Source of the DNA: Deltaproteobacteria bacterium
Lineage (GTDB): Bacteria; Desulfobacterota_C; Deferrisomatia; Deferrisomatales; JACRMM01
DNA: 11,189 bases
Reading direction: 5' to 3'
Assembly (NCBI GenBank): GCA_016218905.1
Contig: JACRCS010000147.1
Span: 1-11,189 of the forward strand
Part shown: positions 1 to 11,189 of the stretch, in pieces
Position numbering within the stretch: the stretch's first letter is position 1
Layout: every line of letters begins with the position of its first letter
Notes under the pieces: model-generated
What the model saw: only the letters and a program-made list of their open reading frames with translations
Told to the model about the DNA's origin: nothing
Database searches by the model: none
Made by a program: the position numbers and the translations under genes

Positions 1-222
1 GTACTGCTCTCCGAAGCCGAGCCCGACGCCTCCGCCGAAGCAGCCGAAGGTCCGGGCGCTGCAGGCGGCGGTCCTGCCCTCGACGGCGCTCGCCAGGAGC
101 CACATCACGCACCCCCAGCGCCCCTCCTTGAACCCGGCGGCGCCCGAGGGCTTCCGATCCGACCAGAGGAGGGCCACGGGGTGGGTGTCGAGACGCAGGG
201 CTTCCGCGATCTTGCTCTTCAT
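1..222 (-). CDS. DUF169 family protein, N-terminal part (runs off left edge)
   Basis: The 74 residues visible match my memory of the start of DUF169 proteins: a start MKSKIAEALRLDTHPVALLW, then a KEGRWGCVMWLLASA stretch, then the cysteine- and glycine-rich FGCFGGGVGLGFGEQY at residues 59-74. The ATG at 220-222 has a strong GAGGAGG ribosome site about 8 bases upstream. DUF169 proteins are soluble, usually 200-270 residues, and have no assigned reaction; the conserved Cys/Gly stretch is their signature. The C-terminal two thirds lie outside the window. It is divergent from the toxin-antitoxin pair, with 215 bases between them. Family call is confident; function is unknown. Confidence 0.85.
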   Translation of the reverse strand, partial: MKSKIAEALRLDTHPVALLWSDRKPSGAAGFKEGRWGCVMWLLASAVEGRTAACSARTFGCFGGGVGLGFGEQY

Positions 223-396
223 GGCTGCCTCCTCGCGTGGATGAAAACCCCTGCACACTACAAACGGGGCCGGGTGCCGTCAATGGCGAGCGACGAGGAA
301 CAGCGCGCCGGAGAGGACGCCCACCAGGGGCAACGCCGTAGATGAGGCTGTCCCAGCTTCACCGTCCACAGCAGGAGTGGCCTGTAGCGCGCGTTC

Positions 397-416
397 GTTA
401 TAACATATGGTATAAC
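397..416. promoter_or_regulatory. Palindromic operator upstream of the toxin-antitoxin pair
   Basis: GTTATAACATATGGTATAAC is a 20-bp palindrome centred on CATATG, with one mismatched pair (A at 403 against G at 410). It is sharply AT-rich in GC-rich surroundings and ends 21 bases before the antitoxin ATG. AbrB/MazE antitoxins bind palindromes overlapping their own promoter, so this is the natural autoregulatory operator. TATAAC at 411-416 could also serve as a -10 box, but no convincing -35 is seen. Confidence 0.65.
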
Positions 417-437
417 ATCGGACGCAGAGGAGAGCTC

Positions 438-662
438 ATGATCGCGCTCAAGATCACGACCGTCGGTAACTCCGCCGGCGTCGTCCTTCCCCGGGAAGTG
501 CTGGCGAGGCTCAAGGTCCAAAAGGGCGATACCGTGTACTTGGTCGAAACCCCGGACGGATTTCGGATCACCCCTTACGACGAAGAGTTCGCCCGGCAAA
601 TGGAGGCGGCCGAAAGCATCATGCGAGAGGACCGCGATATCTTGAGAGCGCTTGCGAAGTGA
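438..662 (+). CDS. AbrB/MazE-type antitoxin
   Basis: A 74-residue protein. Residues 1-46 form the AbrB/MazE swapped-hairpin DNA-binding domain (KITTVGNSAGVVLPREVLARL, then GDTVYLVETPDGFRITPYD). The acidic helical tail from about 47 to 74 is the expected toxin-binding part. I chose the ATG at 438 because GAGGAGAG lies just upstream and the domain begins there. The frame is open further upstream, but that extension has no homology and crosses the operator. The stop overlaps the GTG start of the Doc toxin, so the two are translationally coupled. Expected role: neutralises Doc and represses the operon through the palindrome at 397-416. AbrB-type antitoxins paired with Doc are known, although the P1 prototype uses Phd. 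Confidence 0.87.
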   Translation: MIALKITTVGNSAGVVLPREVLARLKVQKGDTVYLVETPDGFRITPYDEEFARQMEAAESIMREDRDILRALAK

Positions 663-1051
663 AAGAGGAACCGGTCTGGCTACTTGAGGAGACGATCCTG
701 GCCGTACACGACGCGCAGATAGGCGAGCACGGCGGACCCGTCGGCCTTCGCGACAGGGGCTTGCTCGAATCTGCGCTCGCTCGCCCCCGAAACCTTTTCG
801 CCTATCAAGGCGCCAGTCTCTTTCAACTCGCCGCCGCTTACGGAGCCGGAATCGTCCGAAACCACCCTTTCGTTGACGGCAACAAGCGGACGGCCTACGT
901 CGCGACGCGCCTGTTCCTCTTGATGAACGGGTTCGATATGACCGCGGAGGCCAGAGAGCGGGTGATCACGTTCATGCGCCTCGCCGCAGGGGAGTTGGAC
1001 GAGCCCGAGTTGGCCCGAGGGCTGGAGGCAAACTCTGCGGCTCTCCCATGA
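659..1051 (+). CDS. doc: Doc (death-on-curing) family toxin
   Basis: A 130-residue Fic-fold protein starting at GTG 659, four bases inside the antitoxin gene. The Doc signature is complete at residues 69-77, HPFVDGNKR (H69, D73, N75, K76, R77), followed by TAYVATRLFLLMNG. Doc differs from AMPylating Fic enzymes in having lysine after the asparagine (NKR instead of NGR). P1 Doc is a kinase that phosphorylates EF-Tu and stops translation. The length fits the family (about 126 residues) and no catalytic residue is missing, so the toxin should be active. It acts in the cytosol and is held inactive by the upstream antitoxin. Confidence 0.93.
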   Translation: MKEEPVWLLEETILAVHDAQIGEHGGPVGLRDRGLLESALARPRNLFAYQGASLFQLAAAYGAGIVRNHPFVDGNKRTAYVATRLFLLMNGFDMTAEARERVITFMRLAAGELDEPELARGLEANSAALP

Positions 1052-1088
1052 GTCCGGGGCCAGCGTCTTTATTCCAGACGAATGAACT

Positions 1089-1103
1089 GGGACCCAACGT
1101 CCC
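1089..1103 (+). terminator. Possible weak terminator after the toxin-antitoxin operon
   Basis: GGGAC-CCAAC-GTCCC forms a 5-bp stem with a 5-base loop 37 bases after the doc stop. It is followed by CTTGTCGTTTT, a poor but T-containing tract. Position and shape fit a weak intrinsic terminator, but the stem is short enough to be chance. Confidence 0.25.
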
Positions 1104-1139
1104 CTTGTCGTTTTCCGCGGTGAAGAGAGGTTCGACCAG

Positions 1140-1928
1140 ATGGCGAGAGAGAGCGTGAATCAGGATCTAAGGGACCTGGCGTACGAGGTTCTGGCTCGGT
1201 CTTCACGCGATTTTCTGATGCAGAGTGGGCTCTCCGAAGGAATGCACGTCCTCGAAGTGGGCTGCGGAGCCGGGGCGATGACCCCGTGGCTCGCGCAGAC
1301 GGTCGGGGCTAATGGAAGCGTCACCGCGCTGGATGTGGACCCCCGCGCACTCGAGATGACCCGCGCCCGTGTGCGGTCTCTCGGCTCGGGCAATGTCGAG
1401 TACGTCTTGAAGCCAGTCCAAGAGATTGCTTCCCTTCGGAAGTCTTTTGATCTGATCTACTGCCGCTTCGTACTGATGCAGTTCCAGGAGCCCGCCGAGA
1501 TCGTCGGCCGCCTCGTTGCCTCCCTCAACACCAAAGGCATCCTCGCTCTCGACGAGCCCGACCAGGAAGCGGACCTCGCGATGCCCCCCTGCCCTCCTTG
1601 TGCTGCGGCCAATCGGGTCTTCTTGGACTATGCTGAGCGCGCCGGTATGACTGTCCAGATCGGCAAGCTCTTGTTCCCGATCCTGCGACAGCTCGGGCTT
1701 GAGATCGTTTTCGCCGAGGTGCGCCAGCCGATCATCTCGCTCCGGCTTGGACTGCAGATGTTCAAACATGGCCTCCTGGATTCCGCACCGTCCCTGGTCC
1801 GAGCGGGCGTGATCGACGACCACGGGCTGGACGAGCTGCTCGAGAGCTTGGAGGTCTGGCCCTCGCTACCCGGAGACTACTACGCGCTCTCCCGCCAATT
1901 TCAAGTGTCCGGACGACTCTCGAGCTGA
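1140..1928 (+). CDS. Class I SAM-dependent methyltransferase
   Basis: A 262-residue soluble Rossmann-fold methyltransferase. Motif I is VLEVGCGAGAMTPWLA (residues 37-52), the SAM-binding glycine loop. The acidic end of strand 2 is VTALDVDP (61-68), and motif III-like FDLIYCRFVLMQFQEP (103-118) follows. The C-terminal ~100 residues lack a recognisable substrate domain, so the methyl acceptor cannot be named. The ATG at 1140 has GAAGAGAGG about 9 bases upstream. It stands alone: 88 bases after doc and 324 bases before the next gene. Ubiquinone/menaquinone or small-molecule methyltransferases look alike at this level, so only the general class is certain. Confidence 0.9.
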   Translation: MARESVNQDLRDLAYEVLARSSRDFLMQSGLSEGMHVLEVGCGAGAMTPWLAQTVGANGSVTALDVDPRALEMTRARVRSLGSGNVEYVLKPVQEIASLRKSFDLIYCRFVLMQFQEPAEIVGRLVASLNTKGILALDEPDQEADLAMPPCPPCAAANRVFLDYAERAGMTVQIGKLLFPILRQLGLEIVFAEVRQPIISLRLGLQMFKHGLLDSAPSLVRAGVIDDHGLDELLESLEVWPSLPGDYYALSRQFQVSGRLSS

Positions 1929-2252
1929 CAAGGAAAGGCCACCACTCGTGCCGGCTTCCGTATGGCACCACTTCCGGAGGGCTTGTCGAGGAGCCTTGCA
2001 GAATCCCATTCAGCGACCCGGACACGGTTTTTCGGGCGGGCAGGTCCCGCGTCCCCGGAGTGTGGGCGCTCTGCACTGCCCTCGCCGGTCATGGTCTACC
2101 CGCGGCAGCCTTGGGTCTACTCGCGTTCCTCGCCGCTCCCGTCGAGGCCGCGCTTCTTCGATCTTCCGGTACCTGATGTGGGCAGGTACGTTAGATGGGT
2201 CGTAGCAATCAGGGCGGTCAGGAGCAGCTCCGGTGATCGGACGGGTGAAGGT
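1929..2252 (+). other. Gap with no recognisable gene
   Basis: These 324 bases separate the two methyltransferase genes. Open frames exist on both strands, but their translations are arginine/serine/proline-rich and match nothing I recognise, as expected of non-coding GC-rich DNA. The frame of the next gene stays open back to about 1962, but that extension has no family resemblance. No clear terminator or promoter was seen. Confidence 0.5.
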
Positions 2253-2708
2253 GTGAAGATCAGAACGCTCATGGGGAGCGGCGACAGGATCGCCCTGCTC
2301 GCGCTGCCGTTCGTCCTGGTCGGCCTGAGGCTGAATGTCTTGCACCCCTCTCTGTTCAGCGTGGGCGGCCCCTCGCTAGGGTTGAAGGCGGTCGCCGTGA
2401 GCATGTTGGGGTTCGGGGTCGTGGTCTGGCTCTGGTCCGCTATCCTCATCCTGACGCGCGTGCCGAGGCACGCGCTGATCACGAATGGACCGTTCGCCGT
2501 CGTGAAGCACCCGCTCTATACGGGCGTCGGACTGCTGGTGGTCCCGTTTCTCGGCCTTCTGCTCGATAGCTACCTCGGGATCCTGATCGGACTCGTCATC
2601 TACGCCGGATCGAGGATCTTCTCGCCCATCGAGGAGAAGGCTCTGTCACGTGAGTTCGGCCGTGCCTGGGACGATTACTGCAAGAAGGTGGCGCTCCCGT
2701 GGCTGTGA
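2253..2708 (+). CDS. Isoprenylcysteine carboxyl methyltransferase (ICMT/PEMT)-like membrane protein
   Basis: About 151 residues from GTG 2253. Three to four membrane segments are visible: residues 12-30, 44-68, 90-103 and 105-122. The ICMT/PEMT hallmark follows the second: the KHPLYTGV motif at 85-92, then EEKALSREFG (127-136) and DYCKKVALPWL (141-151), the typical SAM-binding C-terminus. Bacterial members of this family methylate lipids or unknown small targets at the inner membrane; the substrate here is unknown. The start is uncertain: GTG 2253 has only a weak AAGG upstream, and ATG 2271 is an in-frame alternative that would still keep the first membrane helix. Upstream in-frame codons look non-coding. 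The length of about 150 residues is normal for compact family members. Confidence 0.83.
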   Translation: MKIRTLMGSGDRIALLALPFVLVGLRLNVLHPSLFSVGGPSLGLKAVAVSMLGFGVVVWLWSAILILTRVPRHALITNGPFAVVKHPLYTGVGLLVVPFLGLLLDSYLGILIGLVIYAGSRIFSPIEEKALSREFGRAWDDYCKKVALPWL

Positions 2709-2776
2709 AGAAGGTTTCAGCGCTCCTCGGCTGCGGGAGCGAGAAACACACGTACGGAGCCGTTCGGGGAAGGTCA

Positions 2777-2929
2777 GAGGGACGTTGGCGCGCAAGAGCA
2801 TTGCTCGCACTGTGCTCCAACGTCCCTTTTGCCCTCCCAGGTGGGCTGCGAGAGCCCCTCGCAGTTCAGCCGCGCGTACAGCCGGCTGTTCGGTGCGCCG
2901 CCTTTGCGGGACGTGACGAGGGCGGATGA
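2777..2929 (+). repeat. Hairpin-AraC repeat, copy 1
   Basis: A 153-bp unit repeated at 6092-6243 in the same orientation; by hand alignment there are 7 substitutions and one 1-base gap (about 95 % identity). The first 48 bases (2779-2826) form a long imperfect hairpin. Its outer 10-bp stem is perfect (GGGACGTTGG with CCAACGTCCC) and an inner GAGC-ATT-GCTC stem-loop sits inside. The rest codes for the C-terminal tail of an AraC-family regulator. Identity begins at the GAGGGACG just before the hairpin and ends at GGGCGGATGA; the flanks differ completely on both sides. Confidence 0.92.
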
Positions 2930-2954
2930 CACGTCCATCCCTAGCCGGTCCTGA
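2838..2954 (+). pseudogene. AraC-family regulator, C-terminal remnant (repeat copy 1)
   Basis: Codons from 2838 to the TGA at 2952-2954 read as the end of the second helix-turn-helix of AraC regulators that contain a 'VGYESPSQFSREY' motif: here VGCESPSQFSRAYSRLFGAP, followed by PLRDVTRAD. Everything N-terminal (effector domain and first helix-turn-helix) is absent and is replaced by the hairpin of the repeat. The conserved tyrosine of GYES is changed to cysteine. There is no start codon or ribosome site, so it cannot make a regulator. Confidence 0.75.
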
Positions 2955-3137
2955 AGGTTGCGCATGTCACGTGCAGGATGTCCGCCGCCCGGCTCACCCG
3001 TTCCGCCGTCGTGCACCGCGACGAAGTACGTCAGGCGCCTCCGCCCCAGGTCGGTTGTAATCGCAGCGCGTGCCGTTCGAGGAAAAGGTCAGGTTGCCCT
3101 TCGGAGTCTTAGCGATAGTCTCGCTCAAACTCGACAC
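2927..3137 (-). pseudogene. Possible decayed reading frame of unknown family
   Basis: On the minus strand two adjacent frames look protein-like rather than random. The first is VSSLSETIAKTPKGNLTFSS followed by NGTRCDYNRP (from 3137 downwards). After a frame change near 3050 comes LTYFVAVHDGGTGEPGGGHP followed by ARDMRNLQDRLGMDVSS, which runs into the repeat. Joined, they would be one broken gene of about 70 residues. I do not recognise the family, no start site stands out, and GC-rich DNA can produce such frames by chance. It occupies the gap between the first repeat copy and the hydrolase operon; nothing else is seen there. Confidence 0.25.
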
Positions 3138-3211
3138 GCCCCTGCACGGGAGGGATCCGACGAGACCTCCGGAAGGGCAGCGGGTAAAGGACCCGCCGAA
3201 AGGAGCGCATC

Positions 3212-3850
3212 GTGAGCAACTCCGCCGACCGCCTGCTGACGCCGGACAACTGCGCCCTGGTCCTGATCGACCACCAGCCACAGATGTTCTTCGGCGTCCA
3301 GTCCATGGACCGCCAGACCCTGATCAACAACGTCCTCGGGCTCGCGAAGGCGGCGAAGGTCTTCGACGTCCCGACGATCCTCACGACCGTTGCCGCGAAG
3401 AGCTTCAGCGGGGATCTACTCCCCGACCTGCAGGCGGTCTTTCCCGCCCAGCAGCCGATCGACCGGACGAACATGAACTCCTGGGAAGACCGGAACCTCG
3501 TGGAGGCGGTGAGGAAGACCGGCCGAAAGAAGCTCGTGATGGCGGCCCTCTGGACCGAGGTCTGTCTCGCCTTCCCCGCCCTGTACGCCTTGAAAGACGG
3601 CTACGAGGTCTACGCCGTCGTCGACGCCTCCGGAGGCACGACGGTCGAGGCCCACCAGAGCGCGATCCAGAGGATGGTCCAAGCCGGCGCCGCTCCGGTT
3701 ACCTGGCTCCAAGTGCTCCTGGAGTTTCAGCGCGACTGGGCGAGGCAGGAGACCTACGACGCGGTGCTCTCCGTCGTCAAGGAGCACGCGGGCGCGTATG
3801 GCATGGGGGTCTTCTACGCCCAGACGATGTTCGGGGGCCACGAGGGCTGA
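3212..3850 (+). CDS. YcaC-like isochorismatase-fold cysteine hydrolase
   Basis: A 212-residue hydrolase of the isochorismatase superfamily, YcaC subgroup. The catalytic triad positions are filled: D20 (LVLIDHQP), R85 (IDRTNMNSWED) and C118 (TEVCLAFPAL). E. coli YcaC, as I recall it, has D19, R84 and C118, so the match is close. The YcaC-type conserved DASGG and RMVQAGAAPVTWLQVLLE (about 174-191) are also present. The GTG start at 3212 follows AAAGGAG by 6 bases. YcaC proteins are cytosolic oligomers whose natural substrate is unknown; the superfamily cleaves amides or vinyl ethers. It is the first gene of an operon with XapX (65 bases on) and an amidohydrolase, which suggests two hydrolytic steps in one small-molecule pathway. 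Confidence 0.93.
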   Translation: MSNSADRLLTPDNCALVLIDHQPQMFFGVQSMDRQTLINNVLGLAKAAKVFDVPTILTTVAAKSFSGDLLPDLQAVFPAQQPIDRTNMNSWEDRNLVEAVRKTGRKKLVMAALWTEVCLAFPALYALKDGYEVYAVVDASGGTTVEAHQSAIQRMVQAGAAPVTWLQVLLEFQRDWARQETYDAVLSVVKEHAGAYGMGVFYAQTMFGGHEG

Positions 3851-3915
3851 GCACCACCCGGGGGGATGTCTCCCACTGCCTGGCCGCACGCCGAGCGCGC
3901 ACCGGAGGACCGTGA

Positions 3916-4191
3916 ATGAAGGCCGCCATCGGACTTCTCTCGGGCCTTCGGAATCGACGCGGCGAGCCGGTGGCTAGGCTCACCCTCGGTCTCCTGATCG
4001 GTGCCGGCTGCCGCTGGTTCGACGTGCCGGCTCCTGAGCCTCCCCGCCTCGTCGGTGCGCTTCTCGTCCCCGCGATGACGCTCGGCTACGTGGTGGCCGG
4101 CCAGTTCGCGGGCCAGCCCGGCCGGTCCAGCCAACGCCGGCGAGAAGCCTCCGCCCGTGTCCGTGACGCCCCTACAGCACGGAGCAAATGA
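3916..4191 (+). CDS. XapX (DUF1427) domain membrane protein
   Basis: A 91-residue protein containing the XapX domain at about residues 24-66: GLLIGAGCRWFDVPAPEPPR, then LVGALLVPAMTLGYVVAGQF, which gives two short membrane helices joined by the P-x-P-x-P-P turn. The ATG at 3916 follows GGAGG by 7 bases. Oddly, about 13 residues (RNRRGEPVARLTL) separate MKAAIGLLSGL from GLLIGAG, where members I recall run straight on; an in-frame GTG at 3970 would give a conventional short form. The arginine-rich tail after residue 66 is also longer than usual and ends one base before the amidohydrolase ATG. XapX proteins have no known function; they recur beside amidohydrolases and isochorismatase-like enzymes and could anchor or serve as a transport accessory (inference). 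Confidence 0.75.
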   Translation: MKAAIGLLSGLRNRRGEPVARLTLGLLIGAGCRWFDVPAPEPPRLVGALLVPAMTLGYVVAGQFAGQPGRSSQRRREASARVRDAPTARSK

Positions 4192-4192
4192 G

Positions 4193-6064
4193 ATGACCGC
4201 ACCCGACCTGGTCCTACACAACGGCGCGGTCACCACCCTGGACCCTCGACGGCCGCAGGCCTCCGCCGTCGCCATCGCCGGGCGGCACATCGAGGCCGTG
4301 GGCGGGGAGGAGCTCCTCCAGACGGCCGGTGAGGGAACCCGCCGGATCGACCTCAAGGGGCGCCGGGTCATCCCCGGGCTCAACGACTCCCACATGCACG
4401 TCATCCGCGGCGGTCTCACGTACAACCTCGAGCTCCGTTGGGACGGGGTTTCCTCCCTCGCCGACGGGCTTCGCATGCTGAAGGAGCAGGCGCAGCGCAC
4501 GCCTCCGGGACAATGGGTTCGCGTCATCGGCGGCTGGAGCGAGTTCCAGTTCGCCGAGCGGCGGATGCCCACGCTCGAGGAGATCAACGCCGTCTCCCCC
4601 GACACGCCGGTCTTCATCCTGCATCTCTACTGCCGGGGGATGCTGAACCGGGCGGCGCTGGGGGCCTGCGGCTACACGAGAGACACTCCGAACCCGCCCG
4701 CCGGCGAGATCCAGCGCGACGCGAGCGGAAACCCCACTGGGCTCCTGATCGCCCGCCCCAACGCAGGCATCCTCTATGCGACCGTCGGCAAGCAGCCGAA
4801 GCTCCCACCCGAGCACCAGATGAACTCGTCTCGCCACTTCATGCACGAGCTGAACCGGCTCGGCCTCACGAGCCTCGTGGACGCGGGCGGCGGATCACAG
4901 ATTTACCCGGACGACTACGCGATCATCGAGGAGCTGCACCGGCGGGACGAGCTGACCGTCCGCATGGCCTACAACCTGTTCACGCAGAAGCCCAAAGAGG
5001 AGAAAGAGGACTTCCTGCGCTGCATGAAGCTGACGGCCCCGGGCCAGGGCGACGACTTCTACCGGTGCAACGGTGCCGGCGAGATGCTCGTCTACTCGGC
5101 CGCCGACTTCGAGGACTTCCTGGAGCCCCGTCCCGACCTGCCGGCCCCGATGGAGAAGGACCTGAAGGAGGTCGTCTCGGTCCTGTCGGCGAACCGGTGG
5201 CCGTTCCGGCTCCACGCGACCTACGACGAGAGCATCTCGCGCATGTTGAACGTCTTCGAAGAGGTGAACCGCGAGATCCCCTTCGCGGGGCTGAGATGGT
5301 TCTTCGACCACTGCGAGACGATCTCCGACGCGAGCCTCGAACGGGTCAAGGCGCTCGGCGGCGGCATCGCGATCCAGAACCGGATGAGCTTCCAGGGCGA
5401 GTACTTCCTTGACCGCTACGGAAAGGAGGCGGCCGAGCGGACGCCTCCCGTGCGTAAGATGCTCGAACTCGGCATCCCCGTAGGCGCGGGCACCGACGCG
5501 ACGCGCGTTTCGAGCTACAACCCGTGGCTCTCCCTCTACTGGCTGACCGCGGGGAAGACCGTGGGCGGCGCCTCCCTGTATTCGCAGCGAAACCGCCTCA
5601 GCCGGGAGGAGGCCCTGAGGCTCTACACGGAAGGCAGCAGCTGGTTTTCGGGCGAGGAGGGCCAGAAGGGCGCGATCGCCGCTGGCCAGCTGGCGGACCT
5701 CGCCGTGCTCACGGAAGACTACTTCTCGGTGCCCGAGGAGCGGATCAAGGGCATCGAATCGGTCCTCACGGTGGTCGACGGCAGGATCGTCTACGGCGCC
5801 GACGAGTTCCGAGACCTCGGCCCGGCCCCGCTGCCGGTGCTGCCGCAGTGGTCGCCGGTGAAGGTCTTCGGCGGGTACGGCGCGCCACTCGACGTCCGCA
5901 AGGCGGCGCGGGCCGGCGTCCCGGTCCCCCAACACCAGCACTCTACCGAGTGCCGCGCCCGCGGTTGCCGGCACGCCGCCCACCAGCTCCTGGCCGGGCT
6001 CCGGGCCGCTGCTCCCCGCTACAGCGATTTCTGGGGGCTCGGCTGCGACTGCTTCGCGTTTTGA
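4193..6064 (+). CDS. YtcJ-like metal-dependent amidohydrolase (amidohydrolase_3)
   Basis: A 623-residue enzyme. The N-terminal β-sandwich (1-60) leads into the metal motif GLNDSHMHV (H67, H69). Later candidate ligands are H341 (FRLHATYDES), H373 (FFDHCET) and D435 (GAGTDATR), and the C-terminal sandwich returns at about 497-535 (GQLADLAVLTEDYFSV, VLTVVDGRIVYG). No signal peptide is seen, so it is cytosolic. Related YtcJ-type enzymes hydrolyse amides or cyclic amides, but the substrate cannot be told from sequence. I chose ATG 4193, with GGAG 8 bases upstream, over an in-frame GTG at 4157 inside the XapX gene. A tail beyond about residue 560 carries His/Cys clusters (H581, H583, C587, C592, H594, H597, C618, C620). 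It is the last gene of the operon. Confidence 0.93.
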   Translation: MTAPDLVLHNGAVTTLDPRRPQASAVAIAGRHIEAVGGEELLQTAGEGTRRIDLKGRRVIPGLNDSHMHVIRGGLTYNLELRWDGVSSLADGLRMLKEQAQRTPPGQWVRVIGGWSEFQFAERRMPTLEEINAVSPDTPVFILHLYCRGMLNRAALGACGYTRDTPNPPAGEIQRDASGNPTGLLIARPNAGILYATVGKQPKLPPEHQMNSSRHFMHELNRLGLTSLVDAGGGSQIYPDDYAIIEELHRRDELTVRMAYNLFTQKPKEEKEDFLRCMKLTAPGQGDDFYRCNGAGEMLVYSAADFEDFLEPRPDLPAPMEKDLKEVVSVLSANRWPFRLHATYDESISRMLNVFEEVNREIPFAGLRWFFDHCETISDASLERVKALGGGIAIQNRMSFQGEYFLDRYGKEAAERTPPVRKMLELGIPVGAGTDATRVSSYNPWLSLYWLTAGKTVGGASLYSQRNRLSREEALRLYTEGSSWFSGEEGQKGAIAAGQLADLAVLTEDYFSVPEERIKGIESVLTVVDGRIVYGADEFRDLGPAPLPVLPQWSPVKVFGGYGAPLDVRKAARAGVPVPQHQHSTECRARGCRHAAHQLLAGLRAAAPRYSDFWGLGCDCFAF

Positions 6065-6091
6065 CGCCGCCCGCGGAACGTCGAAGCGTCG

Positions 6092-6243
6092 GAGGGACGT
6101 TGGTGCGCAAGAGCATTGCTCGCACTGTGCTCCAACGCCCCTTTTGCCCCCCAGGTGGGCTACGAGAGCCCCTCGCAGCTCAGCCGCGACTACAGCCGGC
6201 TGTTCGGTGCGCCGCCTCTGCGGGACGTGACGAGGGCGGATGA
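6092..6243 (+). repeat. Hairpin-AraC repeat, copy 2
   Basis: The second copy of the unit at 2777-2929, starting 27 bases after the amidohydrolase stop. The hairpin is 6094-6141; a T-to-C change puts one A-C mismatch in the outer stem, while the inner GAGC-ATT-GCTC loop is unchanged. The AraC-coding half keeps the same frame. The two copies bracket the three-gene operon as direct repeats. The hairpin could also act as a transcription end for the operon, since CTTTTGCC follows it directly. Confidence 0.92.
6152..6243 (+). pseudogene. AraC-family regulator, C-terminal remnant (repeat copy 2)
   Basis: The frame from 6152 reads VGYESPSQLSRDYSRLFGAP then PLRDVTRADE, the end of the second helix-turn-helix of an AraC-family regulator. 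This copy keeps the usual GYES that copy 1 has changed. The frame stays open past the repeat to 6361, but those residues come from the neighbouring RAYT element and are not AraC-like. There is no start codon context, no effector domain and no first helix-turn-helix. Confidence 0.75.
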
Positions 6244-6253
6244 AAGAGCGAGG

Positions 6254-6479
6254 GACGGGGTCAGGTCTACGCAATTGACGGGTGGGGCCGGACTGAGGGA
6301 AGACGGAGGGAGATGGGGGGAAGACTTGGCCAGGAGTGTCCGGGCGCGTCCTATTACGTGACTCCACGGGGCAATGGGCGCCGATTGCCGCAGCAATCGC
6401 GCAACTGACCGACGTCTTCAGGCGTCTTCAGACCTGCGACTGAAAAGGGAACCGTCAAATGCGTAGACCTGACCCCGTC
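6254..6479. mobile_element. 226-bp MITE-like element with RAYT/REP-type terminal inverted repeats
   Basis: The ends 6254-6281 and 6452-6479 are 28-bp inverted repeats with a single mismatch. Each carries the core GGGGTCAGGTCTACGCA / its complement TGCGTAGACCTGACCCC. Sequences with a GGGGTCAGGTCT core commonly flank REP-associated tyrosine transposase genes in my recollection, and the interior here encodes a RAYT start (6313-6408). A whole RAYT gene needs about 600 bases or more, so this looks like an internally deleted, non-autonomous derivative. No target-site duplication is visible, as expected for this IS200/IS605-related class. Confidence 0.78.
6313..6408 (+). pseudogene. REP-associated tyrosine transposase (RAYT), N-terminal remnant
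   Basis: From ATG 6313 to TGA 6406-6408 (31 codons) the translation contains RLGQECPGASYYVTPRGNGR, the RAYT opening motif that normally reads close to E-x-PGA-x-YHVT-x-RGN. The usual histidine of YHVT is tyrosine here. GGAGGGAG lies directly upstream. The catalytic HUH and tyrosine region and the rest of the roughly 200-300-residue protein are missing. It sits inside the 226-bp inverted-repeat element and is presumably what remains after internal deletion. Confidence 0.68.
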
Positions 6480-6549
6480 CGGTACCCCCTACTTCTCTGA
6501 GGCCACCCGGCTCGGGATCGCAAAGGCGTCGGGTGAGTGGAAGGAAGAT

Positions 6550-6571
6550 GGGGTGCCCCAGAGGGCACCCC
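6550..6571 (-). terminator. Terminator-like hairpin after the FMN-binding protein gene
   Basis: GGGGTGCCC-CAGA-GGGCACCCC is a perfect 9-bp stem with a 4-base loop, 21 bases past the stop of the minus-strand gene ending at 6593. The following minus-strand bases are CATCTTCCTTCC, pyrimidine-rich without a clean T run. Strong stem, weak tail. Confidence 0.55.
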
Positions 6572-6592
6572 GCGGCTTAGACCTTCCGGGGC

Positions 6593-6964
6593 CTACAAAG
6601 TCTGTTCCACCGAGAGAACGGTTACGATCAAGGCAGCTCGAGCCCACGAGAATCGGGCCTTGACTCCTTCGAACTCCGGACCGGAGGCGGCGAACGCGGC
6701 CTTACCCTTCACCAGAAAACCGGTGCCGAGGCCGTTCTTTCCGGCGACTTTGCTGCTGCCCATGGTGAGGAGCACGTTGTTGTTGGTCGAGATGTTGGCC
6801 TCCGTCTTGTGATAGTACCCTGCTGGAATCAGCAGGCGGCCGTCGTCGGTAATCCGTACGTAGCTGTTCCAGGTGTTGACCATGTGCGGTCCTTCAGGGC
6901 CGAGGGTCGCGATGGCCACCACCCCGTCCTTCTTCAGTACTTCGCGCAGCTTGTCTGGAATCAT
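6593..6964 (-). CDS. Small FMN-binding split-barrel protein (pyridoxamine-phosphate-oxidase-like)
   Basis: A 123-residue protein that closely resembles the 122-residue FMN-binding protein of Desulfovibrio vulgaris as I remember it. Shared blocks include DGVVAIATLGPEGPHMVNTW (13-32), HKTEAN (52-57), KVAGKNGLGTGFLVKGKAAF (71-90) and the end RAALIVTVLSVEQTL. It folds as a split β-barrel, binds FMN at a dimer interface, and is thought to act in electron transfer; no substrate is firmly known. The ATG at 6962-6964 follows AAGGAG by 6 bases. It lies 288 bases downstream of a Crp/Fnr regulator on the same strand, so redox- or oxygen-dependent control is plausible (inference). Confidence 0.9.
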   Translation of the reverse strand: MIPDKLREVLKKDGVVAIATLGPEGPHMVNTWNSYVRITDDGRLLIPAGYYHKTEANISTNNNVLLTMGSSKVAGKNGLGTGFLVKGKAAFAASGPEFEGVKARFSWARAALIVTVLSVEQTL

Positions 6965-7252
6965 GAGACTGCTCCTTTCTGTGGTTGCTGGTGCAGGCTA
7001 CCTCACAGGCGGTGGTGCAACGTCTTGCGGTGACTGTCTGGAAGCCTTGAAATGGCTGAGTGAGTCACGGCGCGATGCTAACAAACTGCACCCAGGGGGT
7101 TCGGTAGCTGACACTACATCGCCCAAGTTTCTTTCGGCCTCGGGAAGGAGGCCAAGGTCGTACCGCGGATGGGGAGTGACTGCCGTGGTTGGAAAGTCGA
7201 CTGAACAGGGGGGAAGTAGAAACGGGGCAGGTGGTTAGCGATCTACGCCCGG
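6965..7252 (-). other. Spacer between regulator and flavoprotein genes
   Basis: 288 bases without a supported gene. They contain an imperfect hairpin at 7131-7156 (GGCCTC/GAGGCC, extended by CTT/AAG) with no T run. Towards the flavoprotein there is presumably its promoter, but I see no convincing -35/-10 pair. I also find no clean Fnr-type (TTGAT-N4-ATCAA) or Crp-type (TGTGA-N6-TCACA) site. Confidence 0.45.
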
Positions 7253-7969
7253 TCAGCCGTCTTGCACGTCGCTCACGAAGAGAAACTTTCCGGCAGAACG
7301 AACCCGGCCGGTTTCTCGAAGCTTGCCGAGAGCGCGGGTGACGCTGACCCGGTGCGCGCCCACGAGGAAACCGATCTCCTCGTGAGTGAGCGGGAAAGCG
7401 ATGTTCCACCCCCCTGGGGCAGGTGTGCCCATGTCGCGGGCCACGTTCGCCAAGACCTCGTACAACCGGTCTTCGAGGTTCAGCTCCGACAGCGCCCCCA
7501 TCTTGCCGGAGAGAAGATTGATCCTGCGGGACAGATTTCGGATCACCACGATGCCCACCGACGGGTACTGATGGACGATGGATTCGAAGGTCTTTCGGTC
7601 GATACCACACAGGACGGTCGGCTCGAGACACGTCGCCGCGACCGGATACTCTCCGCCGTCTTCGATGAGCACGTTCTCACCGAGCAGGTCGCCCGCCTTG
7701 CGGATGTCGAGGGTCAGGACGCGGCCATCCTCCGTCGTCTTCCATAGCTTCACAGAGCCCGCCTTGATGAGCCACATGCTGTCGGCGGGATCGCCCTGCA
7801 AAAACAGGTTCTCGCCAGCCGACAGGTGCCTGCGCAGCAGATCTCCCGAGAATTGCTCCCATGCCTCTGCCGGCGCACCTTCGAAGAGCCAGATCTGGCC
7901 GAAACAGCGCGGGTGCAGCGGGACGTCGGGCCCCGCAAGTCGCCGGCATCGACATAGGTTCTCGCCCAC
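7253..7969 (-). CDS. Crp/Fnr family transcriptional regulator
   Basis: A 238-residue regulator. Residues about 24-130 are the cyclic-nucleotide-binding-type β-roll (LSAGENLFLQGDPADSMWLI, GSVKLWKTTEDGRVLTLDIR, GDLLGENVL). A dimerisation helix spans about 138-175. The winged helix with FPLTHEEIGFLVGAHRVSVT (192-211) carries the recognition helix. The β-roll lacks the RSA-type cAMP phosphate-binding motif, so the ligand is probably not cAMP. The N-terminus is cysteine-rich (C6, C8, C22), with C114 and C121 in the roll, which could suit an iron-sulfur or thiol redox switch; the spacing is not that of E. coli FNR. The GTG start at 7969 follows GAGGTGG. Related Geobacter-like regulators share the CFG-x-x-WLFEG opening. 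A likely target is the flavoprotein gene downstream. Confidence 0.92.
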   Translation of the reverse strand: MGENLCRCRRLAGPDVPLHPRCFGQIWLFEGAPAEAWEQFSGDLLRRHLSAGENLFLQGDPADSMWLIKAGSVKLWKTTEDGRVLTLDIRKAGDLLGENVLIEDGGEYPVAATCLEPTVLCGIDRKTFESIVHQYPSVGIVVIRNLSRRINLLSGKMGALSELNLEDRLYEVLANVARDMGTPAPGGWNIAFPLTHEEIGFLVGAHRVSVTRALGKLRETGRVRSAGKFLFVSDVQDG

Positions 7970-8041
7970 GGTTCCACCTCACTTCGGCTAGGCGTTCGCT
8001 GCACTCGGCAGACGAGGCACTTGTTCGCGCTCGCACTCATA

Positions 8042-8569
8042 TCAGGTCTCTGAGGCCGTCTCTGTAGCATCCGCTACACTCTCAGTCTCTCGTCCGAGTG
8101 GCTTCACGTTCACGCCGGCGAGATAGAGGTTCGCGAGACTCCAGGCCGTGTGATGCCACTTCGTCTGGCGGAGGACCGCCTCGATGTTTGCCGGGGTCAG
8201 GAAGACCACCGACCAGCCGAGCGCATCGAGGACGAGATCCTGTTCGCGCCGCGGGAAGAGGCCGCGCACCATCGGGGCAACCCTTGCCCGCGTCAACGCG
8301 ACGAGATCGAGACCCGCGAGCTCCTCCGACACGATCGCATGCCCAGCTCGGCGCACCACCTCGTCGATGAGTGCCCCGCGAAGCGCCGCGTGCGCGTGCC
8401 GTGCGCGGGCAAGGAAGTCGCCGCCGCGAAAGGCCGCGTAGTGCTGGCTGTCGTAAGCACCGGTGTGGACGTAGCGTTCGACGGCCTCTCGGCAGGCGCC
8501 GCCCCCCATAGGGCCCTCGCGGCCCTCCGGACCTCTTGAACGGGGCGGCGCGTCAGGTTGAGGGCCCAT
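8042..8569 (-). CDS. Conserved protein of unknown function, overlapping parE
   Basis: 175 residues from ATG 8569 (GAGGGTGG about 9 bases upstream). An in-frame ATG at 8509 would give 155 residues and starts closer to the conserved part. Conserved-looking blocks are CREAVERYVHTGAYDSQHYA, the hydrophilic helix FLARARHAHAALRGALIDEV, RARVAPMVRGLFPRREQD, and GWSVVFLTPANIEAVLRQT with TAWSLANLYLAG. I recall proteins with this core that continue into a zinc-protease-like HExxH-type half; here the protein stops soon after LANLYLAG with a low-complexity tail, so it may be truncated. It has no membrane segment. It overlaps the parE end by 17 bases, so it is probably co-transcribed with the toxin-antitoxin pair, 72 bases before the Crp/Fnr gene. 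Confidence 0.75.
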   Translation of the reverse strand: MGPQPDAPPRSRGPEGREGPMGGGACREAVERYVHTGAYDSQHYAAFRGGDFLARARHAHAALRGALIDEVVRRAGHAIVSEELAGLDLVALTRARVAPMVRGLFPRREQDLVLDALGWSVVFLTPANIEAVLRQTKWHHTAWSLANLYLAGVNVKPLGRETESVADATETASET

Positions 8570-8903
8570 TTTCGGGACCACCCTCGTGAATGGACTCCTG
8601 AAGCGCGGAGGGAATGTCTCGCGCGGCGTGAAGGACGCGGAGCACGTCCACGTAGTCGTCCCGCTCGACGTAGAAGACGAGGTAGTTCTCGAAATCGGGA
8701 ACGGCCCAGACCCGCAGGTTCTCCATGATCGGCAGGTGCGCGTACCGCGGAGATCCGATGGAAGGACGTTCGCCGATCCGGTCGAAGGCGGCCTGCACCG
8801 CGTCGAGGAAGCGGAGGGCCGCCTCGAGATAGTCCTTGGCGATGTAGCCCGCGTGGTCGTCGATCTCACGATCGGCCCGCGGGCGAACTCGAACGGGCTT
8901 CAT
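8553..8903 (-). CDS. parE: ParE/RelE-superfamily toxin
   Basis: A 116-residue toxin of the ParE type: RVRPRADREIDDHAGYIAKD (5-24), the two N-terminal helices with RFLDAVQAAFDRIGERPSIG, and the β-strand core with VWAVPDFENYLVFYVERDDY and VDVLRVLHAARDI. ParE members poison DNA gyrase, while RelE relatives cleave mRNA; the pairing with a ParD antitoxin favours gyrase. The ATG at 8901-8903 overlaps the parD stop by four bases, giving translational coupling. Length is slightly above the usual ~95-105 residues because of a polar tail after residue 104. No sign of inactivation. Confidence 0.93.
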   Translation of the reverse strand: MKPVRVRPRADREIDDHAGYIAKDYLEAALRFLDAVQAAFDRIGERPSIGSPRYAHLPIMENLRVWAVPDFENYLVFYVERDDYVDVLRVLHAARDIPSALQESIHEGGPENGPST

Positions 8904-9151
8904 CCGCCTGCTTGCTTCTTCAGGAGCGCGGCCCGTTTGCCTCGCCAGTAGCCCTCATCGGCTGGGACCGGAGGGCCGGACTCGAGCCCTTCCAGCATCA
9001 GGGCCGCCAGGCGCTGCTCGGCCTGGCCGATCTGGTCCTTTCGGATCAGGTCGCGCACGTACTCGCTCGACGTGCTGTAGCCCCTCTCCCGCACCTGTGT
9101 GTCCACGAAGCGCCTCATGCCGTCGGGCAGGGAGATGTTCATCGTCGACAT
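8900..9151 (-). CDS. parD: ParD-type antitoxin
   Basis: An 83-residue antitoxin. Residues 1-40 are a ribbon-helix-helix DNA-binding domain (MNISLPDGMRRFVDTQVRER, then GYSTSSEYVRDLIRKDQ). The rest is the flexible toxin-wrapping tail, with the conserved W69-R70 near GYWRGKRAALL. The start is either ATG 9151 or the adjacent ATG 9154; GAGG lies just upstream of both, and 9151 gives the family-typical MSTMNISLP opening. ParD dimers repress their own promoter and bind ParE. The upstream bases (9160-9200) are relatively AT-rich and probably hold the promoter, but I could not define the boxes. Confidence 0.93.
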   Translation of the reverse strand: MSTMNISLPDGMRRFVDTQVRERGYSTSSEYVRDLIRKDQIGQAEQRLAALMLEGLESGPPVPADEGYWRGKRAALLKKQAGG

Positions 9152-9361
9152 CATGACCTCGCGCGAAGATGGGATATGACAAAGTTTGCCAACCAGCTCC
9201 CGCGATGTCCAGGGCAATCGGCGTGCCACATCCCTCTCTGCCAGGCGCCGCCGGTGTTTCGCTCGAACAGACGCAGGGACCGAGACCTCCAGCCCGCGAA
9301 GGGCGTATCCTTCCCGCCGCCGCGCGTAGTGATCGCGGGCTGAGGAAGAAAGGACGCCCCC

Positions 9362-9758
9362 TTGGTTGTCGCGCACGTCTCGACGAGTGAAGACGGACTC
9401 TACCTCCGGGCGGAGTCGGCGCCTGCTTCGGCCAAGAGCAAACGGAAGGGAGCTCGCCGCCGCAACGGGGTCGGCTCACGAGACCGAGTATGAGGGCCTG
9501 GACCGGCCGTCGCGCGACATCGTGGAAGTGCTCTCCGTGCTCGCCTCCGCAGTGACCCGCACGCTGCTCCTCCACTGCCTGGCTGCAACAGGCTCTCGTG
9601 CACCCAGGGAGAAGAACTGGACCGCCCAGAACCTTTTGTTCGTCTTCCGAAAGCTCGTCGAGACAGGCCTCGCGGAGGACGTCGACAAGAAGTTTCGCTG
9701 CGCGTCGGCCTTCCGGGAAGTCGCCACACGGCGGGTGCTCGCGCAGAAATCGGCTCGG
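9362..9758 (+). pseudogene. Frameshifted 5' fragment, perhaps of an SNF2/DEAD-box-type helicase
   Basis: A TTG at 9362, preceded by AAAGGA, opens a frame reading VVAHVSTSEDGLYLRAE and ending in an Arg/Lys-rich stretch with a TGA at 9491-9493. The coding look continues in another frame from about 9477: LDRPSRDIVEVLSVLASAV, then WTAQNLLFVFRKLVETGLAE and FRCASAFREVATRRVLAQ, which resembles a winged-helix-like segment. I have the impression of the N-terminus of a bacterial SNF2-related helicase (a short opening strand, a basic linker, then this helical domain), but that is from memory and weak. A frameshift between 9450 and 9490 and the abrupt switch to a phosphoesterase after about 9760 show that the gene is broken. 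Confidence 0.4.
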
Positions 9759-9833
9759 GAGGCTGTCCAAGGAGCTTCGGTATCTATTCATGGTCGAGAG
9801 GGTTCAGGCACTTGCCCGAAGGCCATGATCCAC

Positions 9834-10259
9834 AAGGTTAGGTCCCTCGAACGGGGTGGAAAGACGGTGTGGATCGCCGGCGCCGGGGACCTCTGGGAGG
9901 ACCATCGAGACGTCGATGTCCTCCTGCGCGGGATTCCCGAAGCGGACTGCCGGATCGTCTTGGCGCACAATCCGGACACCGCCGACACCGGCTTCGGCGG
10001 ACGGACAGACCTCATGATCTCCGGCCACACGCACGGAGGACAGGTGAACATCCCCTTTCTCGGGCCGCCGGTGCTGCCTGTGCGCAACAAGACGTACTCG
10101 AGTGGGCTCAAGACCTCAACCCGGGGCGCGCGGGTCTTCATCTCCAGAGGAATCGGCTGGGCGATCTACCCTGTGCGGTTCAATTGCCCGCCCGAGATTG
10201 CTGTGCTCGAGCTCGTACCCGACAAGTCAGGCCCGGGCCACCCAGGCACGAGTCCCTGA
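9834..10259 (+). pseudogene. Metallophosphoesterase (YkuE/YaeI-like), C-terminal half only
   Basis: The last ~140 codons of a frame open from about 9366 read as the C-terminal half of a YkuE/YaeI-type calcineurin-like phosphoesterase: ERGGKTVWIAGAGDLWEDH, then CRIVLAHNPD (first retained metal histidine), DLMISGHTHGGQVNIPFLGP (GHTH, the last metal-binding pair), and GARVFISRGIGWAIYPVRFN, PEIAVLELV. The N-terminal D-x-H, GD and GNHD motifs that complete the two-metal site are missing, so the product cannot be a normal enzyme. It is joined in frame to the unrelated fragment upstream, with no start codon or ribosome site of its own in good position. Intact relatives sit at the membrane and cleave phosphodiester or pyrophosphate bonds of lipids. 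Confidence 0.8.
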
Positions 10260-10502
10260 ACGGCCATTCGTCCCGCCGGGGAGCGGCCGCAGCGCGGTGA
10301 GTGCCGAAAGGCATCGGTCTTTCAACGAACCCGAAGAAGTCTTCAAAAAGTCGTCGGAGCCTTTTCGCAACACCTCTGGTCGCCGGGCGTTCACGACTCG
10401 CCACCACACCGACATGCTTCGGACCCGTCCCGCCCGGACTTCAAAAAGGCGACCCATCTGCAACCGACGAGTCCGAAAGTGTCCTCTGCAGGACTCAAGC
10501 AC

Positions 10503-10528
10503 AAAACCTCCCCGCCATTCCGGGGCGG
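10503..10528 (-). terminator. Probable intrinsic terminator on the minus strand
   Basis: Read on the minus strand, CCGCC-CCGGAAT-GGCGG (10528-10512) is followed by GGAGGTTTTG with a TTTT run at 10506-10503. It begins 1-2 bases after the stop of the small membrane protein frame, where a terminator would be expected. Confidence 0.4.
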
Positions 10529-10529
10529 T

Positions 10530-10682
10530 TCATAGAAGAGCGACACGGATCGTTTCACTAATCACGTAGATGAGAAACAGCGGAAAGACGGCGAGGACCG
10601 CCGTCATGACCCAAACAATTCCCTTCGACAGGAACGCAGGGTGCGGCAAGTATCGGTCGGCCGCCCTCTCGAGTGAGAACAT
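10530..10682 (-). CDS. Possible small single-pass membrane protein
   Basis: A 50-residue frame starting MFSLERAADRYLPHPAFLSK and followed by one clear membrane helix (about residues 22-43, IVWVMTAVLAVFPLFLIYVI), ending SETIRVALL. The frame stays open upstream to about 10772, adding a less convincing hydrophobic LLFLTAM, so it could also be the end of a longer broken membrane protein. No strong ribosome site precedes ATG 10682. Support comes from the uninterrupted hydrophobic helix and the terminator-like hairpin directly after the stop. I do not recognise a family, and it may be chance. Confidence 0.4.
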   Translation of the reverse strand: MFSLERAADRYLPHPAFLSKGIVWVMTAVLAVFPLFLIYVISETIRVALL

Positions 10683-10784
10683 GGCGGTGAGGAACAGGAG
10701 AGACTGGGGACGGGCGAGGGGACGTTTGCTAAGGTTTATTAAGGGTATGCTTTTGCTCCACGGCTTGAGCAAGTCCTCTCGAGA

Positions 10785-10966
10785 CGACCGCGAAGAGCGG
10801 TCGAAGACCTCCTGCGCGAGGTGAGCGAGAAGTACGGCTGCGCGGCGGAGGCTCTGTTCGGCGGCAGCCGGAACCGGCTCTCGCGCGTGGGCGGCGGGAA
10901 TTCCTGCTGCGCGCGGTGGAGGAGGCGGGTACTCCGATCAGTTCGTTGGCTCGGGCCCGTCCCCTC
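10785..10966 (+). pseudogene. RAYT-like transposase, frameshifted C-terminal remnant
   Basis: Reading from about 10785, VEDLLREVSEKYGCAAEALF (10800 on), then GGSRNRLSRVGG; then, in another frame from 10892, RREFLLRAVEEAGTPISSLA. This is the layout I remember for the C-terminal helical, DnaA-like DNA-binding region of REP-associated tyrosine transposases (helix, FGG/GRSR turn, helix, short helix-turn-helix). At least one frameshift near 10890 and loss of everything N-terminal make it dead. About 75 bases upstream is GGGGACGTTTGCTAAGG (10718-10734), which may be an old element end. Family call rests on pattern memory and is moderate at best. Confidence 0.5.
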
Positions 10967-10992
10967 CCGTCCCGTCCACCATTGGCATGCCG

Positions 10993-11189
10993 TTACGGCT
11001 TCCGACGCGCCCTCAGCCGCGAGGTCGGCGCTTGGGGATCCTCTCGGGTTGAACGCGATGCCGCGGCGAAGTCCATGATGGTGTCGAGCCGTGCCTCCAC
11101 GCGTGTGGTTCGCCGGTCGAGTTCCCGGACCTCCTCGGCGAAGCTCTTCACCGTCTCCGAGAGCGCCTTGACGTCGTCCGTGAGCTTCA
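10993..11189 (-). CDS. Coiled-coil protein, C-terminal part (runs off right edge)
   Basis: From the right edge to a TAA at 10993-10995 the minus strand reads KLTDDVKALSETVKSFAEEV, RELDRRTTRVEARLDTIMDF, then a polar, arginine-rich tail. Heptads of leucine/valine at a and d positions over about 40 residues indicate a coiled coil. The last visible bases (TGAAG) would form ATG-AAG if the next base outside is A, so it may be a complete protein of about 65 residues rather than a tail. Function cannot be told. It faces the RAYT remnant and ends 27 bases from it. Confidence 0.5.
   Translation of the reverse strand, partial: KLTDDVKALSETVKSFAEEVRELDRRTTRVEARLDTIMDFAAASRSTREDPQAPTSRLRARRKP

Follow-up and report, generated by a model that had tools for sequence, protein, structure and literature searches.

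Repetitive extragenic palindromic sequences (REPs) are found mostly downstream of coding regions but also occur inside genes (PMC3733652). Clusters of them can be recombination hot spots (PMC11708052), and REPs can favour rearrangements as well as duplications (PMC11708052; PMC8763031), according to the available parts of these articles. Here we analyze an 11,189-nt contig of a Deltaproteobacteria bacterium (JACRCS010000147.1, assembly GCA_016218905.1, positions 1 to 11,189; hereafter the window), in which two direct copies of a block, each composed of a hairpin and the 3′ end of an araC-family gene, flank a three-gene operon. We consider it fairly likely that this arrangement is the scar of a duplication and not an element: an araC gene would have been severed where a REP-like or terminator-like palindrome lies, with a single, local copying of the hairpin plus gene tail.

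Two copies of a hairpin and araC gene end flank an operon

The block and its parts are located as follows:

2773-2929, + strand: repeat copy 1 (hairpin and araC 3′ fragment), 94.3% identical to copy 2, with one indel
6088-6243, + strand: repeat copy 2 (hairpin and araC 3′ fragment), aligned to copy 1
2776-2829, + strand: hairpin of copy 1, DNA fold -16.6 and RNA fold -33.6 kcal/mol
6091-6144, + strand: hairpin of copy 2, DNA fold -13.3 and RNA fold -28.5 kcal/mol; one mismatch weakens the stem
2841-2954, + strand: araC 3′ end of copy 1, 37 codons and a stop, encoding VGCESPSQFSRAYSRLFGAPPLRDVTRADDTSIPSRS; HTH_18
6155-6243, + strand: araC 3′ fragment of copy 2, ending before the natural stop; HTH_18

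The gapped alignment of the two copies gave 148 identical columns out of 157 (94.3%), with 8 mismatches and a 1-nt gap. The repeat search reported the same block as two direct families, of 65 nt at 94% and 106 nt at 92%, since the indel breaks the register. A first-pass annotation had described two direct repeats of about 153 bp, about 95% identical, around a YcaC-XapX-amidohydrolase operon. This description held: 145 of 153 columns are identical over 2777-2929 versus 6092-6243, the local alignment extends 4 bases leftward of the 2777/6092 edge across one gap, and domain profiles confirmed the three genes between the copies. The two-copy observation is confirmed.

Each unit had further been taken as a hairpin plus an araC tail, with edges sharp enough for the whole to have moved or been copied as one block. 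Hairpin and tail are both real, but the tail of copy 1 exceeds the shared block: its frame passes 2929 and reaches its own stop at 2952-2954, 13 residues beyond PPLRD. The 60-nt flanks beyond the edges are indeed not significantly similar, either on the left (shuffle fraction 0.087) or on the right (0.52), but two edges are expected of any duplication. In both copies only a few bases separate the left edge from the palindrome, and it is the only edge with a structural feature. At the right edge, 101-nt folds (z -0.1 and -2.0) revealed no clear structure of its own, and in copy 2 the identity ends within the araC gene, 9 bp to the left of a separate element with 29-bp inverted repeats (6253-6480). 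The right edge is unlike an element end because the araC tail of copy 1 continues to a stop at normal distance.

The hairpin compared with REP sequences

Folding was one of the checks that the first-pass annotation had proposed, and it confirmed both hairpins: they fold better than nearly all of their shuffles, with RNA z scores of -5.0 for copy 1 and -4.0 for copy 2. As DNA, the corresponding scores are -4.1 and -2.6, and 1 and 4 of 200 shuffles, respectively, fold equally well. The hairpin of copy 1 starts 67 nt past the stop codon of the upstream methyltransferase-like gene (ending at 2708), that of copy 2 only 26 nt past the amidohydrolase stop codon (ending at 6064), and both lead into four T. 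Located just downstream of same-strand genes, the hairpins may still act as transcript ends or as mRNA-stabilising structures, roles that have been proposed for REPs. A terminator scan of the window found 9 terminator-like sites against 6.3 expected and listed neither hairpin, their loops and T runs lying apparently outside the rule of the scan.

The hairpin resembles REPs, as these are presented in the available parts of PMC3733652 and PMC11708052, in that it lies shortly downstream of same-strand genes and at the edge of a duplicated segment. It differs from them in length, about 54 nt compared with the 20-40 bp given for REPs, and in the absence of a GTAG tag: by eye, we read AGAG in copy 1 and GGAG in copy 2, and CGTC only inside the stem. 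Also, REPs form multi-copy families, whereas none was seen for this hairpin in the collections searched, the source genome being outside them (a scope that holds for all searches for further copies described below).

Other identities were considered for the hairpin. An Rfam search returned no match. The possibility of an integron attC site was rejected by eye, the core sites being wrongly oriented. We also compared the hairpin with araC coding sequence, because the match of one of 33 AraC queries (L063) extended across it; the DNA and, for both copies, three frames were each set against the matching araC stretch. They were no closer than shuffles (fractions 0.13-0.93), and a diverged araC coding sequence was rejected. 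Elsewhere in the window, 1086-1106 (ACTGGGACCCAACGTCCCCTT) is 81% like the 3′ arm of the hairpin over 21 nt and is partly a listed terminator-like site.

The araC tails

As in AraC-family genes, the tails match the C-terminal part of the HTH_18 domain (PF12833), and in copy 1 the stop lies at a normal distance; they differ from such genes in that copy 1 retains no more than 37 codons and in that the copies diverge at near-invariant residues. Of the 80 profile positions of HTH_18, the match covers 55-75 in copy 1 (E 0.02) and 51-75 in copy 2 (E 0.0005), and both matches are under the gathering cut-off because so little of the domain remains; neither tail holds a complete AraC DNA-binding domain. 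A PPLRD-to-stop distance of 13 is the commonest value in the short relatives listed (38 of 120). Among araC open reading frames (ORFs) from loci, of which 31 out of 33 gave a value, 11 was commonest (9/31) and 13 occurred in 6/31. With the chance of a stop falling in the normal range estimated at perhaps one in five, the stop of copy 1 can only be called suggestive.

Ahead of the edge codon, the shared frame has four differing codons, giving Y/C, F/L, A/D and one synonymous Leu, that is three non-synonymous changes out of four. At these three positions the relatives carry Y (120/120), F (120/120) and E (118/120), an invariance inflated by the fact that the 120 relatives listed, of 151, were picked by similarity to the tail. 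Since the residues that differ are near-invariant, both tails look like decaying pseudogene fragments. Judging from three codons, the tail protein seems to have been free of selection since the copying, and the AraC tail product is probably not useful.

A tblastn search with 33 AraC ORFs (498 rows) matched both tails and found no other araC part in the window. Among the 428 rows counted as other, the L063 row (E 7e-11) is the match to the copy 2 tail, extended leftward across the hairpin; all others have E values of at least 0.006. A weak, recurrent match at 8733-8807 (23 rows, E 1.0-4.6) was taken as chance.

Searches for further copies

The first-pass annotation had suggested that many copies with the same two edges in related genomes would support an element. 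None was found: no further copy of the block appeared in the collections searched, and in the Geobacter-like class the unit was matched in 65 of 195 genomes, every listed row covering the tail alone, from query position 61 (at most the best 4 candidates per genome were scored). We opened 30 araC loci from this class; 29 carry a stop-to-stop ORF of 302-353 codons, one has 152 codons at a contig end, and no hairpin was present at any of them.

Scanning 84,980 GTDB species genomes for the exact stem, with 20-36 nt allowed between the arms, yielded 13 stretches with unrelated loops; such a scan would miss a changed stem like that of copy 2. A pattern search of 148 genomes gave only a hairpin in G004, already present in the exact-stem scan. 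With blastn, the hairpin matched in 16/235, 13/249 and 10/297 genomes of three phyla (E up to 0.1; samples partly overlapping earlier draws). These matches are all short pieces, 16-40 nt where re-aligned, and in the 297-genome sample the 3′ arm of the hairpin (query 42-66) accounts for 6 of the 10 rows. The 3′-arm matches were taken as chance, their surroundings showing by eye neither a similar hairpin nor an araC tail.

Viral sequences gave no match in two scans. Matches were obtained in 130 plasmid records, and in the 20 listed they are confined to the part from window position 6141 onward, in essence the tail. At the protein level, a hairpin-coded N-terminus was found in none of the 120 listed of 151 matches in the tail frame, and the alternative frame through copy 1 returned one candidate and none at E 0.1.

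The operon between the copies

Three genes lie between the repeats:

3212-3850, + strand: YcaC-like isochorismatase-fold hydrolase (PF00857 3e-27; NF041461 8e-49, under the equivalog cut-off)
3916-4191, + strand: XapX-domain protein (TIGR03510, 39.3 bits for a cut-off of 27.8)
4193-6064, + strand: YtcJ-like amidohydrolase (PF07969 1e-123)

The amidohydrolase is 84-86% identical to Geobacter-named proteins, among many others, and is widespread, being found in 47 of 195 genomes of the Geobacter-like class at E 1e-200 and in 9 of 145 genomes of a second phylum at E 1e-150. One locus elsewhere (G660, contig 145, 7287-11054) holds an araC tail match at a distance of about 2 kb from an amidohydrolase of this family (56% identity, one in-frame stop).

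A separate mini-element beside copy 2

6253-6480, no strand assigned: mini-element whose 29-bp terminal inverted repeats contain GGGGTCAG, starting 9 bp to the right of copy 2

The inverted repeats of this mini-element are 97% identical and 170 nt apart, and its DNA fold, computed with 8 nt of left and 5 nt of right flank included, reaches -64 kcal/mol (z -5.7). GGGGWSAS is a motif of terminal inverted repeats (TIRs) around tyrosine transposases in the available part of PMC3733652 (section 16), and GGGGTCAG fits it. The likeness to TIR-associated tyrosine transposase elements concerns 6253-6480 with its 29-bp inverted repeats; the hairpin-tail block, in contrast, has neither such TIRs nor the motif. 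No match to the mini-element was found in 148 genomes.

Origin of the repeated block

An araC-family 3′ end adjoins the hairpin, and its 5′ part was not found in the window. A simple model would start with disruption of an araC gene at the REP-like or terminator-like palindrome, leaving the hairpin and the 3′ end. A single copying event would then have placed the block on the opposite side of the operon. This could have been a tandem duplication, after which one of the two operons was lost, or else ectopic recombination or template switching at the palindrome. Both copies would have decayed afterwards with no selection on the protein. The arrangement of copy 1, which retains a normal stop, is probably the older one, and the 6253-6480 element, or the event bringing it, may have cut copy 2. 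A 1990 study by Shyamala, cited in PMC11708052, reportedly deals, as its title has it, with REP sequences at duplication join-points. As a scar the locus would be of little note, a further palindrome-edged duplication with two dead gene ends.

Several points weigh against this model. An araC tail was near the operon in none of 24 distinct operon loci, most of them with at most 1.5 kb of flank; and of 35 genomes with both a tail match and the amidohydrolase, the two lie within 2 kb in only one (G660), as counted by hand with only the best few candidates per genome scored and on contigs that were often short. On these counts we rejected araC as the operon's own regular neighbour, and the model does not account for the source of the tail. 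About nine of the 120 tail proteins listed have, by eye, an unusual N-terminus (e.g. P0036, P0040, P0056, P0058), with varying junctions, none of them hairpin-coded; broken or fused tails of this araC gene are thus not rare elsewhere, without the hairpin. Nor does anything survive, for instance part of a second operon, that would directly betray the duplication route. An element end, too, would be expected to look like this left edge at the hairpin. Finally, the hairpin is a candidate REP at most: the collections searched, with the source genome outside them, gave no third copy, and about 54 nt is too long for a REP.

The first-pass annotation had hesitated between a new small mobile or recombination unit and a duplication scar; the evidence favours the scar, while the element reading is unsupported. 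A small non-autonomous mobile unit would use the hairpin as left end for an HUH transposase (Y1 or similar to REP-associated tyrosine transposases) acting on single-stranded DNA, with the araC tail as cargo. The left edge at the hairpin in both copies, left flanks without significant similarity and the TIR motif of TIR-associated tyrosine transposases in the repeat element 9 bp away speak for such a unit. We nevertheless think it improbable, as no clear structure marks the right edge, which falls within a gene that in copy 1 reads on to its stop, and as the searches made, which left the source genome outside, gave no further copies. The odds look equally poor for a lineage-specific miniature element of single-strand type, with a palindromic left end and a captured araC 3′ end, inserting downstream of genes. 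If true, two element copies around the operon would let recombination excise or move it, and same-edged copies in the source genome, if they existed, would make this a miniature bacterial element with a captured gene fragment. Among titles of the open-access literature, gene-fragment capture appeared only for eukaryotic Helitrons; bacterial cases may still be in print.

Integrases integrate at tRNA genes and some protein genes, and normally one end restores the gene. Accordingly, the repeats could be the att sites (attL and attR) of an island of 3.3 kb that entered the araC 3′ end, as direct repeats of a gene 3′ end do flank a compact operon and the amidohydrolase is found in several phyla. 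This is very unlikely, however: the three intervening genes are not integrases and occupy most of the interval (2930-3211 being outside the domain scan), intact araC is at neither end, and the shared block contains the hairpin but not the stop codon. Two tail matches occur in some genomes, hence paralogues exist, and a hairpin element might have entered two adjacent araC paralogues in separate events at one and the same codon; but 94% identity over hairpin, junction and tail, together with the same 5′ loss twice, fits one event followed by copying much better, and we give two such insertions hardly any credence. An assembly chimera at the repeat, in what is likely a metagenomic contig, which the first-pass annotation had raised as a possible error, is likewise highly improbable: there are differences in 9 of 157 columns, and the longest exact run common to both, 33 nt, is too short to confuse the usual long k-mers.

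Other features of the window

Another truncated gene tail is present at 9861-10217, where only the 3′ part of a YaeI-like phosphodiesterase gene was found (profile positions 158-271 of 271, 107 bits for a cut-off of 188). At 10700-10985, G-rich and C-rich ends surround a frameshifted reading frame; no Pfam match was obtained for 10821-11075. The frame is reminiscent of the C-terminal part of REP-associated transposases. Lastly, Pfam matches revealed two toxin-antitoxin-like pairs, MazE-like with Fic/Doc at 438-1048 and ParE with a weak ParD match at 8556-9154.

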